Part shown: positions 56,079 to 60,406 of the stretch, one piece after another
Layout: each line of letters begins with the position of its first letter
Numbering within the stretch: position 1 is the stretch's first letter
Assembly: GCF_000789255.1 (NCBI RefSeq)
Contig: NZ_CP009552.1
Coordinates: 1,364,001-1,428,000 of the forward strand
Direction of reading: 5' to 3'
DNA: 64,000 bases
Source: Geoglobus acetivorans
Lineage (GTDB): Archaea > Halobacteriota > Archaeoglobi > Archaeoglobales > Archaeoglobaceae
Notes under the pieces: model-generated
Seen by the model: only the letters and a program-made list of their open reading frames with translations
Told to the model about the DNA's origin: nothing
The model's database searches: none
Translations under genes and position numbers: made by a program

Positions 56079-56339
56079 ATGATCTCAATAAAGCTCCTCA
56101 CGTCCCCAACCTGCCCGTACTGTCCGAGGGCGAGGGAAGTCGTAAAGAAACTGACTGAGGAAGACGGGAACGTTATCGCTCTGGAGCTGAGTGTTACCAC
56201 GGACGAAGGTCTGAAAGAGGCTCTGAAATTCGGAATATCCGGTGTTCCCGCGATAATTATAAACGACGCTGACGTGATACTGGGTGTCCCTAAGCTCTCA
56301 GACCTGAAAAGGCTTGTTGAAAAATACAGGTACAATTGA
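56079..56339 (+). CDS. Glutaredoxin/thioredoxin-like protein (CPYC)
   Basis: The 86-residue thioredoxin-fold protein has the active site TCPYCPRAREVV and the cis-Pro in GVPAIIIND. CPYC is glutaredoxin-like, but archaea of this type lack glutathione, so the partner is likely another thiol system. It opens an operon of six genes: this, thioredoxin, radical SAM, HTH, ferredoxin, unknown. A GAGGTGATGAAGG site precedes the ATG. Confidence 0.9.
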   Translation: MISIKLLTSPTCPYCPRAREVVKKLTEEDGNVIALELSVTTDEGLKEALKFGISGVPAIIINDADVILGVPKLSDLKRLVEKYRYN

Positions 56340-56357
56340 GATGGAGGTGAAAAAAGA

Positions 56358-56681
56358 ATGAAGGCACTCACAGAAAAGGATTTTGATGAGGAAATAAACA
56401 AAGATAAGCTCGTTGTAGTGGATTTCTGGGCAGAGTGGTGCATGCCGTGCAGAATGCTCACTCCGGTACTGGAAAAGCTGGAGAAGGAGTACGATGGAGT
56501 TGAGTTCGCGAAACTGAATACCGACGAATGCCCCAACGTCGCAATGAGATTTGGGATATTCAGCATCCCCACGGTGATGATGTTTTACAGAGGAGAAGTG
56601 GTAAACAGCTTTGTCGGAGCCATGCCAGAGAGCGTTGTCAGAAGAGAAGTGGAAAAGGCGCTTGAAAAGATACAGGCATGA
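56358..56681 (+). CDS. Thioredoxin (CMPC)
   Basis: The 107 residues are a normal thioredoxin with FWAEWCMPCRMLTPVL; the active site CMPC differs from the usual CGPC, which changes its redox potential. The rest is standard, with SIPTVMMFYRGEVV for cis-Pro. It follows the glutaredoxin-like gene by 18 bases and overlaps the radical-SAM gene start by four bases (ATGA), so all are translated together. Confidence 0.92.
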   Translation: MKALTEKDFDEEINKDKLVVVDFWAEWCMPCRMLTPVLEKLEKEYDGVEFAKLNTDECPNVAMRFGIFSIPTVMMFYRGEVVNSFVGAMPESVVRREVEKALEKIQA

Positions 56682-57346
56682 GAGTCATAAATTACGGGGA
56701 TTGCAGGGTCGATGTAGGCCTTTGCAATCTCCGGTGCCCCTACTGCGTTCATCTGGAACATGAGTTAAGAGACGTCAGCCCGGATGAGATAGCTTCATCG
56801 CTCAAAGGCTGTGAAAGTGTGTACATTGGCGGAGCAGAACCGACAGTCCATGCAGACCTTGCAAAACTGCTCGAAAAACTGAAAGAGAACGGTTCATACA
56901 TTACACTGAAAACAAACGGATATCTGCCGTCAAAGATTGAAGAAGTCCTGCATTATGTTGACAGGTTCGTATTCGAGATAAAGGGAGATTTTAACGACAT
57001 TGACACCGTGGCATTCATGTCTGGTTTGAGCAGAGAAAGAGCGAGAAAATACATCAGTAATCTGGAAAAGAGTCTGGAAATTGCAAGAAAGGGTGGAAAA
57101 ACCATAAGACTCTGGTTCAGAATAATTCCCGGATATGTGGATGAAAAACGCTTCACCAGAATGCTTGAAAAAGTTGGCATCGTGGACGAAATCCTCCTCT
57201 ACCAGTTCCTTTCGAGACCTGACTGGGATAAACCCGTAGAGGGTCTTGAAAAGCCCGATTACAAGTTTGTGAGAAAGCTGGGTGCAATCGCAAAACAGTA
57301 TGCAGGCAGGGTCATAATCATCGGAGACAGGCGGGAATCGATATGA
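56678..57346 (+). CDS. Radical-SAM protein of redox operon
   Basis: The 222-residue protein has the cluster motif CNLRCPYCVH near residues 16-25 and SVYIGGAEPTVHADLAK, in place of the usual GGEP. It resembles activases of the pyruvate-formate-lyase type and organic-radical activators, but no glycyl-radical enzyme is nearby. Its start overlaps the thioredoxin stop and its stop overlaps the HTH start (57343-57346), both as ATGA. The substrate is unknown. Confidence 0.82.
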   Translation: MRVINYGDCRVDVGLCNLRCPYCVHLEHELRDVSPDEIASSLKGCESVYIGGAEPTVHADLAKLLEKLKENGSYITLKTNGYLPSKIEEVLHYVDRFVFEIKGDFNDIDTVAFMSGLSRERARKYISNLEKSLEIARKGGKTIRLWFRIIPGYVDEKRFTRMLEKVGIVDEILLYQFLSRPDWDKPVEGLEKPDYKFVRKLGAIAKQYAGRVIIIGDRRESI

Positions 57347-57708: not shown

Positions 57709-57882
57709 ATGCCACCTGCAGTTCTTGGATGTCAGGGTTGCGGAAGGTGTTCACAGGTGTGTCCAACGGACGCCCTGATAAGACAGGGCGGCAAGGTCGT
57801 GAGAATCGATGCGGACAGATGTATGGAGTGCTACAAGTGTGTTGAGGTATGTCCGTACGGTGCACTGATAAAGATGGACTGA
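57709..57882 (+). CDS. 2x[4Fe-4S] ferredoxin
   Basis: The 57-residue ferredoxin has CQGCGRCSQVCP and CMECYKCVEVCP, both full Cx2Cx2Cx3CP motifs. It starts in the base after the HTH stop. In the operon it would supply electrons to the radical-SAM protein or thioredoxins. Its end overlaps the unknown gene by 34 bases. Confidence 0.92.
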   Translation: MPPAVLGCQGCGRCSQVCPTDALIRQGGKVVRIDADRCMECYKCVEVCPYGALIKMD

Positions 57883-58412
57883 ATGACGAGACGGCACGGA
57901 AGGGTTTCACGCTTCTCGAAAAATATGCTGAAAGCGGAATCATACCTGAAAAAGAACTTGACCACGAACTGATTCTGTTCTTTTATTCCGAAAAACTTGC
58001 CTTTCCCGTTTCCGCTCGCAAAGACTCTCTGTCATGGGGTATGAGAGAAATATCTCTGCAGGACCTCGAAATCCCGTACATCATAAGAGAGCTTTTGAAA
58101 AACAACTGTGACTGGAAGAAGGCAGTGAGAGAATATTTCAGGAGGATCGGTGAAAGTCATCCTGAAGATTTTGTGGAGATTGTTGAAGAACTCATCAAAA
58201 GAAGGAGAAAGTTTTTGATTTCAGGGACAGAGATCGTGGATCTCTGCAAAAAATATAACAGAGATGGGGGAGTCGTGATAGCCGAACTAAAAGGCGCCGG
58301 TGTGATAAGCCCACATTCAGGCTGTGGCAGAGCAGTTTCCAGGCTGGAAAGGATCCATGGTTCTCCACTGTACGAAATAAACAGATTTCTGATAAAGCTC
58401 GTAGAAGGCTAA
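57849..58412 (+). CDS. Unknown protein closing the redox operon
   Basis: The 187-residue protein is mostly helical and hydrophilic; its middle (ESHPEDFVEIVEELIKRRR) and end (GTEIVDLCKKYNRDGGVVIAELKGAGVIS) look like two winged-helix-type units without a recognised family. The only start in frame is ATG 57849, inside the ferredoxin gene, giving a 34-base overlap. It has four cysteines, two of them in CKKY and GCG. It shares the operon and strand with the radical-SAM protein. Confidence 0.68.
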   Translation: MSVRCTDKDGLNDETARKGFTLLEKYAESGIIPEKELDHELILFFYSEKLAFPVSARKDSLSWGMREISLQDLEIPYIIRELLKNNCDWKKAVREYFRRIGESHPEDFVEIVEELIKRRRKFLISGTEIVDLCKKYNRDGGVVIAELKGAGVISPHSGCGRAVSRLERIHGSPLYEINRFLIKLVEG

Positions 58413-58807
58413 AGTATGTGCAGAGCCACCTTTCTTTTTCTCTTTCTGGTGTCAAAATTTATCAGGACTATCTGCTGCCAGGTTCCGAGCACGAGCCTCT
58501 CCTCACTGAAAGGAACAATCAGGCTCGTCCCGATTACGGCAGATTTCACGTGAGATGAACCATTGTCGTCGTTCCATGTTTCATGGTGTGCATAGTGTTC
58601 GCCATAGGGTGCAAGCCGGTCCATCATTCTCGGCAGGTCTTTTTTCAAACCCGGCTCATATTCAAGCGTTGTTACTGCACCTGTCGAACCAACGCTGAAT
58701 ACAAGAACTGCCCCCTCCTTTTTCCCGCTCTGCTTAACAAACTCCTGAACCTCAGGAGTTATATCCATAACCTGATCCCTGTCCATTTCAAACTCCAGAA
58801 ACTTCAT
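58409..58807 (-). CDS. YjbQ/UPF0047 family protein
   Basis: The 132 residues match YjbQ: VLVFSVGSTGAVTTLEYEPGL, APYGEHYAHHETWNDDNGSSHVKSAVIG and EERLVLGTWQQIVLINFD. Metal-binding histidines in the YAHHETW/SSH parts are conserved in the family. Some members have weak thiamine-phosphate synthase activity, but the true role is unknown. Its ATG overlaps the stop of the upstream SLOG gene (ATGA). Confidence 0.92.
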   Translation of the reverse strand: MKFLEFEMDRDQVMDITPEVQEFVKQSGKKEGAVLVFSVGSTGAVTTLEYEPGLKKDLPRMMDRLAPYGEHYAHHETWNDDNGSSHVKSAVIGTSLIVPFSEERLVLGTWQQIVLINFDTRKRKRKVALHIL

Positions 58808-59250
58808 CTGAGTCCCTCCAGTGCAAGATTCACAGCTTCTTCAGGGCTTTCAGCAAGAACCAGCCCATCAAGCTTTACAGCAGGCCTGTAAGCCACCACT
58901 CTTTTTCCCTCCTTGAGGGCAATCGCCATCTCGGAGATTGTGCCATAACTGCCCCCAACGGCTATGAGAGCATCGCTCGAATGGACAATGACCATGTTCC
59001 TCGCATGACCCATATCGGTTGCAATGATGTAATCACAGTATCTGTTTGCAAGCTTTTTGTCTTTAAATGGGATTATGCCAATGACCGTGCCACCTCTGCT
59101 CTTTGCACCTCTGCTAACAGCCTCCATCACTCCCCCAAGACCGCCATTTATCACCACCGCACCGTTTTCGGCAAGAAGCTGTCCTATCCTGTAAGCAGTG
59201 TCACAGATATCCCCATAACACCTCCCGCTTCCTATTATTCCTATCTGCAT
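58804..59250 (-). CDS. TIGR00725/LOG-like (SLOG) Rossmann protein
   Basis: The 148-residue protein starts MQIGIIGSGRCYGD and shows GGLGGVMEAVSRGAKSRGGTVIGI and VAVGGSYGTISEMAIALKEGK, the PGGxGTxxE-like motif of lysine-decarboxylase-fold proteins. It may bind a nucleotide-linked ligand; LOG enzymes release cytokinins from AMP, but the archaeal group is uncharacterised. The start is the ATG after AGAGGTGGTATC. It is divergent from the acetyl-CoA-synthase-like gene and shares the ATATTTAAC box near 59287-59296. Confidence 0.85.
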   Translation of the reverse strand: MQIGIIGSGRCYGDICDTAYRIGQLLAENGAVVINGGLGGVMEAVSRGAKSRGGTVIGIIPFKDKKLANRYCDYIIATDMGHARNMVIVHSSDALIAVGGSYGTISEMAIALKEGKRVVAYRPAVKLDGLVLAESPEEAVNLALEGLR

Positions 59251-59317
59251 GATACCACCTCTGAGAGAGGTTGAAAAACCCGGACAGATATTTAACGGCC
59301 CGAAACAATATAAAAAT

Positions 59318-60406
59318 ATGCTTGAAAGGGTCATCGATCCAGAGAAGATTAACGTTCAGGCCGATTGCATCGAGATGAGTGAACTGTACGCTGGAGAGAG
59401 AGTGAAGGAGGGCAGAATTGTAAAGGGATTTGAGCTTGTGGAGGTAGGCAGGGGTGACGGGATCGAGATCGTTGGAGATCGCAGAGACATAATGGGTATC
59501 CACGTTCTGGTTTCAGGTGTAACTGATGACTCTGCCCAGGCAATTGAGAGCATTTTTTCCGAAGTTATAAACAGGATGAGAGGGGTAGAATACAGATTCA
59601 GGAAGGAAAACGTCAGAATAATCGTATCTGAAGAAGTCGAAGAAAAATTTTCGGCTGAATGCGTTGGCAGAATCATATACGACGCAGTAAAATCGATTCC
59701 AGCCGTCAAATCGGTGAAAGTCAGAATGATATGCGATGAAAACGAGTTTATGAAAATCATTGAAAAAAGCCGGAGAGTCCATGAAAATCGAGAAAAGAAG
59801 TCAGAAAGTTTAAAGGACAGTGACGTGGGCAGGTTTTATGGCTGTGTGTCCTGTCAGGTTTACCTTCCCCATCACGTATGCACAATCACTCCTGACAGAC
59901 CCTCGCCGTGCGGAACTATCTACAGCGAGGCAAAAGCAGCAGAGGAGCTCAAGCTCGTACACTACTATTTCCCGGTTGACAGAGGCAGAACCATCGACGA
60001 ACACAAAGGAGAATACGAAGGTGTGAACAGAGCTGTTGAGGAAATGAGTGAGGGAGCAATAACAAAAGTAAAACTGCATTCAGCTCTCGATTCCCCTCCA
60101 CCCACCGGAAATTATGCCGAAGCGATAGTATTTTACATTCCGGAGGAGGACGGTTTCGGAATTGTTGACAGAGGCTACCGAAAAAAGACACCCACAGGAC
60201 TCACGTTCGACAGTATGGAAAAAATCATCGTCGGACAGCAGGTTGAGGGGTTCGTTGGAGTGAGCTTCGCATACATGCGATCCAGGAGCTTCCTCAAAGG
60301 CGATGGAGGGTGGAACAGGGTGAAATGGGTCTCGCCGAATGTCTATGACTTCATAATGGAGTTCCTGCCATACGAGCTGCTGAAAAGTATAAAAACCATG
60401 GGCTAA
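59318..60406 (+). CDS. Acetyl-CoA synthase beta (CdhC)-like protein lacking the Ni-binding CGC
   Basis: The 362-residue protein is clearly related to CdhC/ACS, which builds acetyl-CoA from CO, methyl and CoA at the A-cluster. YAGERVKEGRIVKGFELVEV and GRFYGCVSCQVYLPHHVC match the family. The four cluster cysteines Cys176, 179, 188 and 198 have the exact spacing Cx2Cx8Cx9C known for the [4Fe-4S] half of the A-cluster. The CGC motif that binds the two nickels is absent; the site reads PTGNYAE (262-268), just before the conserved AIVFYIPE. The [4Fe-4S] half may form, but the nickel site cannot be built in the known way. ATG 59318 lies 26 bases after a GATATTTAAC box. Confidence 0.85.
   Translation: MLERVIDPEKINVQADCIEMSELYAGERVKEGRIVKGFELVEVGRGDGIEIVGDRRDIMGIHVLVSGVTDDSAQAIESIFSEVINRMRGVEYRFRKENVRIIVSEEVEEKFSAECVGRIIYDAVKSIPAVKSVKVRMICDENEFMKIIEKSRRVHENREKKSESLKDSDVGRFYGCVSCQVYLPHHVCTITPDRPSPCGTIYSEAKAAEELKLVHYYFPVDRGRTIDEHKGEYEGVNRAVEEMSEGAITKVKLHSALDSPPPTGNYAEAIVFYIPEEDGFGIVDRGYRKKTPTGLTFDSMEKIIVGQQVEGFVGVSFAYMRSRSFLKGDGGWNRVKWVSPNVYDFIMEFLPYELLKSIKTMG

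Follow-up and report, generated by a model that had tools for sequence, protein, structure and literature searches.

What remains of an acetyl-CoA synthase (ACS) once its nickel site has been lost, and what might such a protein still do for the cell? The question is raised by a single gene of the hyperthermophilic archaeon Geoglobus acetivorans, situated in the window, a stretch of 64,000 nucleotides from a closed genome of 1,860,815 bases. An earlier note, made from the letters of the window only, had described it as matching CdhC/ACS along its whole length, with the spacing of the iron-sulfur cysteines intact and the nickel-binding Cys-Gly-Cys (CGC) motif replaced, and had seen in it a paralogue of changed function standing apart from the cdh genes. 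This description is well supported by the results presented here, except for its assertion that only the nickel ligands were lost.

The gene encodes a 362-aa homologue of the A2 and A3 domains of CdhC/ACS (Table 1). An ATG at 59249 lengthens the frame to 385 aa; the orthologues, which start with M[IL]xR[FYV]IDP, set the beginning of the protein at the Met at 59318, in agreement with the coordinates given earlier. The Pfam match is ACS_CODH_B_C, the A3 domain (PF19436, E=1.4e-46, 159.5 bits versus a cut-off of 25). The NCBIfam models for CdhC span residues 37-383 of the 385-aa frame, and neither curated cut-off is reached: NF003379 yields 356.3 bits (E 2.3e-106; cut-off 372) and TIGR00316 249 bits (cut-off 355.95). 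The best solved match is Methanosarcina ACS (PDB 9c0s_E, 3.5e-50), of which residues 7-375 are covered by the family profile of the paralogue. As judged by these comparisons, the likeness to ACS is far beyond chance, and homology can be regarded as demonstrated. A normal CdhC, the presence of which had been a point to be checked, exists in the same genome as the one further match: a protein of 521 aa with PHTSCGCFE, 29% identical to the paralogue. Its operon comprises a full-length CdhA (1392 bits) and, as read from the sequences, CdhB-, CdhD- and CdhE-like genes.

Table 1. Positions of the features discussed. Plain numbers refer to the window; numbers preceded by L refer to loci of other genomes.
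Feature	Position	Strand	Basis
Ni-free CdhC/ACS paralogue, A2+A3, 362 aa	59318..60406	+	PF19436; NF003379, 356 bits; 21 orthologues; start set by orthologues
A2-like N-terminal half, missing in short orthologues	59318..59830	+	Alignment; contains C17 (59366) and C115 (59660)
[4Fe-4S] ligand block C176-x2-C179-x8-C188-x9-C198 (CVSC...C...RPSPC)	59843..59911	+	Sequence; no exception among 21 paralogues and 44 canonical CdhC/ACS rows
G264-N265-Y266 at the place of the Ni-binding Cys-Gly-Cys	60107..60115	+	Alignment to Cys278-Gly279-Cys280 of 9c0s_E
E301, invariant Glu; loop is MAG..GGG in canonical CdhC	60218..60220	+	Ala in 44/44 canonical rows
Intergenic region between paralogue and SLOG gene, divergent, 64 bp	59254..59317	.	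SLOG start set by orthologues
SLOG/TIGR00725 protein, Moco-carrier-like group, divergent	58804..59253	-	PF18306, 1.1e-43; TIGR00725, 2.8e-44
YjbQ/UPF0047 gene behind SLOG gene	58409..58807	-	PF01894, 2.5e-34; same order in g1 and g5 genomes
Third MoeA (~360 aa) and SAMP1/MoaD behind paralogue, genus g3	L047:6599-9847; corresponding loci L041-L044, L046
CdhC of genus g133	L142:7628-8860	+
CdhC of genus g133	L143:6934-7554	-
CdhC of genus g133	L154:8078-9328	+
CdhC of genus g133	L155:8867-9829	+
CdhC of genus g133	L156:2031-3293	+

The four cluster cysteines (first bases at 59843, 59852, 59879 and 59909) have the exact spacing Cx2Cx8Cx9C and are demonstrably kept throughout the 21 paralogues and the 44 canonical rows of one alignment. 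In that same alignment the CGC motif occurs in 44/44 canonical rows versus 0/21 of the Archaeoglobaceae orthologues, which establishes at the level of sequence that the nickel site is gone, and not in this species alone. Its place, 66 residues past C198, corresponds to the residues named Cys278-Gly279-Cys280 in Methanosarcina ACS (PMC11474084). Across the paralogues it is occupied by G/S/A, then N/L/P or a gap, then Y/F/L.

The changes extend beyond the nickel ligands. The phenylalanine of the CO alcove (F195 in Methanosarcina, F512 in Moorella) is replaced in all 21 paralogues, with Y, R, H, S or K instead and Y182 in the G. acetivorans protein. The role of this alcove residue has been described (PMC11474084, PMC11321310). 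Also missing are W132 and R134 of the A2 domain of CdhC, one Gly of the GGG loop and the C-terminal tail. S178 and E301 are new invariants of the paralogues with respect to the canonical rows, and among the long forms C17 is found in 14/15 and C115 in 16/16 of the rows in which the position is filled. These additional losses, together with the new invariants, indicate a rebuilt active site rather than a point loss, and acetyl-CoA synthase chemistry by the paralogue is very unlikely. What has been retained is the iron-sulfur domain.

In comparison with the structurally characterized CdhC of Methanosarcina thermophila (9c0s/9c0t), the paralogue has the same combination of A2 and A3 without A1, the same cysteine spacing, many of the fold-defining Gly and Pro residues and W337, while it lacks Cys278/Gly279/Cys280, Phe195, the Trp/Arg pair of A2 and the C-terminal extension, and is encoded outside the cdh operon. 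The A2 and A3 domains also align with those of bacterial ACS/AcsB from Moorella (1oao, 1ru3, 6ytt), but the paralogue has neither A1 domain nor nickel site and is half as long.

The distribution of the gene was followed in 57 genomes of the order Archaeoglobales. The 21 orthologues, all in Archaeoglobaceae, come from independent assemblies and have open frames. Members of genera g1, g3, g6, g7 and g8 have the long form of ~360 aa, while five members, from genera g5 and g12, have a short form of ~175 aa consisting of the A3 domain only. Genus g2 and several other genera lack the gene, as do single members of g1 and g5, and no gene remnant was seen at the SLOG locus of genomes without it. For the nearest pair, dN/dS amounts to 0.17 (NG86) or 0.24 (YN00), which demonstrates purifying selection on the paralogue.

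In a tree of 69 rows, from which the CGC columns were left out, the 21 paralogues come out as a single clade (100/100), whose stem measures 1.67 changes per column. Within it the short forms are placed among the long ones, beside g8 (96/85), and their existence implies that the A3 iron-sulfur domain can stand alone in some lineages. An origin of the paralogue within the CdhC of Archaeoglobales was rejected (AU p=0.0066), a result to be read with caution in view of the long stem. Profile and signature searches in the phylum sample find the family in Archaeoglobaceae only; the signature P[DE]RPSPCG, sought in 393 genomes of the phylum, marks the paralogue itself in 21 Archaeoglobaceae genomes and occurs as single sites in 3 others, taken as chance. 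The viral contigs searched contained no paralogue, and among plasmids the sole match was a distant one (29%), to a chromosome-sized record of Acetoanaerobium. Second matches were also seen in other families of the phylum, and those that were read keep CGC, except in genus g133.

In this genus of the Methanosarcinaceae, CdhC carries HTTGSV instead of HTSCGC. As in the Archaeoglobaceae paralogues, CGC and the alcove Phe are both lost and the four cysteines are kept; unlike them, the g133 protein retains the N-terminal domain PF03598 and is encoded next to CdhD-CdhE. One genome (G372) has two copies, and no CdhA reaching the cut-off was found in four g133 genomes. Methanimicrococcus has been reported to be without CdhA and CdhB (PMC11362671, PMC9723798), and from the fit with the absence of CdhA, g133 is probably this genus. 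For Methanimicrococcus, a functional CdhCDE has been considered possible (PMC9723798); the g133 sequences make it unlikely that their CdhC produces acetyl-CoA. Grouping of g133 CdhC with the Archaeoglobaceae paralogues has a support of 69/90, and grouping with the CdhC of its own family is not rejected (AU p=0.19), so that the two groups may go back to a shared loss of CGC or to independent losses.

For the role of the paralogue, the best lead comes from gene context, and it points to Mo/W-pterin cofactor or sulfur metabolism. A Moco-carrier-like SLOG gene lies near the paralogue, divergently oriented, at 12/21 loci from 5 genera. The solved relatives of the SLOG protein include two Moco carriers, 6y01 (5.6e-21, the best; PMC7470044) and 2iz5 (6.4e-16), so that by its nearest structures the neighbour appears Moco-carrier-like, within a superfamily that also includes LOG enzymes and others. 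The SLOG gene is nearly universal in the order (48/57 genomes, also those without the paralogue), and co-occurrence was discarded as an argument since its presence does not track that of the paralogue. Furthermore, an old syntenic stretch of SLOG, LSm and epimerase genes extends to family f2. Given this near-universality and old synteny, the adjacency may be mere inheritance and is weak evidence.

In genus g3, all six genomes have the paralogue, SAMP1/MoaD and MoeA genes in a row on one strand with short gaps, and this MoeA comes in addition to the two usual copies at other sites; the link with MoaD and MoeA is seen in this one genus only. An ApbC/Mrp iron-sulfur carrier gene is located directly upstream of the paralogue in one g3 genome, MoaA-MobA adjoin it in one g12 genome, and in another g12 genome the short paralogue lies behind SepCysS in the same orientation (L051:6176-8027(+)). 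No partner gene is universal across the 21 loci, and the numbers of molybdopterin oxidoreductase and AOR genes per genome show no clear tie to the paralogue.

Some further features of the surroundings can be recorded here. In the host genome, the nearest relative of the third MoeA is situated at G000:C1:1439141-1440229, ~15 kb from the paralogue and ~11 kb past the end of the window, and in four other Geoglobus genomes it is similarly found at 14-19 kb. Within the window, 57849-58412(+) encodes a 187-aa protein without Pfam or NCBIfam match that is kept in five of the loci compared (cluster C14), while 56079-57346(+) contains glutaredoxin-like, thioredoxin and short radical-SAM genes in a row (222 aa for the last, NrdG2-like below cut-off). 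The redox/radical-SAM neighbourhood mentioned in the earlier note is conserved in Geoglobus alone.

The reading that we favour, while judging it somewhat short of probable, is that of a stand-alone [4Fe-4S] protein built from the A2 and A3 domains of ACS, with partners in Mo/W-pterin or sulfur-carrier metabolism. With the dinickel site lost, acetyl-CoA chemistry would have been given up. The four cysteines would bind a conventional [4Fe-4S] cluster, which may be used for redox purposes or for iron-sulfur or sulfur transfer. More speculatively, and with less support, the partners could be SAMP1/MoaD, MoeA and the Moco-carrier-like SLOG protein, and the paralogue could deliver electrons or sulfur to a cofactor-assembly step or protect it. 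A conserved role as carrier of CoA or acyl groups, on the other hand, is argued against by the short members, which are devoid of the whole A2 domain. It could also be envisaged that an ancient, vertically inherited Ni-free ACS domain has become a [4Fe-4S] factor in the assembly of Mo/W-pterin or sulfur carriers, while in parallel a methanogen CdhC, now working only with CdhDE, lost its nickel site; this wider scenario we consider rather unlikely.

Alternatively, the protein might still serve CODH/ACS, either as an inactive look-alike of CdhC binding CdhA or the corrinoid protein CdhDE, or as a scaffold or chaperone for loading of the A-cluster, much as NifEN resembles NifDK. The paralogue is derived from CdhC, a CdhC is present in 18/18 well-assembled genomes that possess it, and in the second lineage without CGC, CdhC has stayed together with CdhD and CdhE in one operon. 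However, at none of the 21 loci is the paralogue in or near a cdh operon, its co-occurrence with CdhC is not significant (Fisher p=0.25), the C-terminal tail of CdhC is missing, short members have lost A2, and the A. fulgidus-like group, among other genera that possess CODH/ACS, lacks the paralogue. An accessory of this kind would be a doubtful candidate.

Less plausible is a redox or ligand sensor that would regulate genes or enzymes through the [4Fe-4S] cluster. The single copy, patchy occurrence and varying neighbours would suit a sensor, as would the sufficiency of the iron-sulfur domain alone in the short members, but there is no DNA-binding or effector domain, nor a constant neighbour that could be regulated. 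It seems improbable that H254, D284 and E301 act with the cluster to hold a different metal or a substrate at the former place of the two nickel ions. Each of the three is invariant (21/21), and canonical CdhC has Ala instead of E301. Yet the equivalent His is found in 30/44 and the equivalent Asp in 15/44 canonical rows, which leaves only E301 as paralogue-specific; the commonest residues at the CGC place (G/S/A-x-Y/F/L) do not make a good set of metal ligands, and an AlphaFold2 model from two sequences (window and L003) was discarded as unusable (pLDDT 41). That the gene is accessory and absent from several genera and from single g1 and g5 members might suggest a decaying CdhC duplicate or a sequencing error, but the chance of this is negligible, as 21 orthologues from independent assemblies, all open and all without CGC, the dN/dS values, the invariant cysteines and the lack of remnants where the gene is absent rule out an error at the site, a fragment or a pseudogene.

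In the open-access literature searched, the coverage of which is incomplete, no description of CdhC/ACS homologues without CGC was found, and novelty is thus provisional. ACS is regarded as among the oldest enzymes. A descendant that is free of nickel and still under selection represents a natural experiment on its iron-sulfur domain by itself. It also carries a warning for annotation: a match to CdhC/ACS that is accepted without a check for CGC can pass for an acetyl-CoA synthase and affect claims of autotrophy, a misreading to which the g133 genomes have probably been subject. If the link of this stand-alone iron-sulfur protein to Mo/W-pterin metabolism holds, the finding would bear on the question of how carriers of the MoaD/SAMP type receive their sulfur and electrons in archaea.
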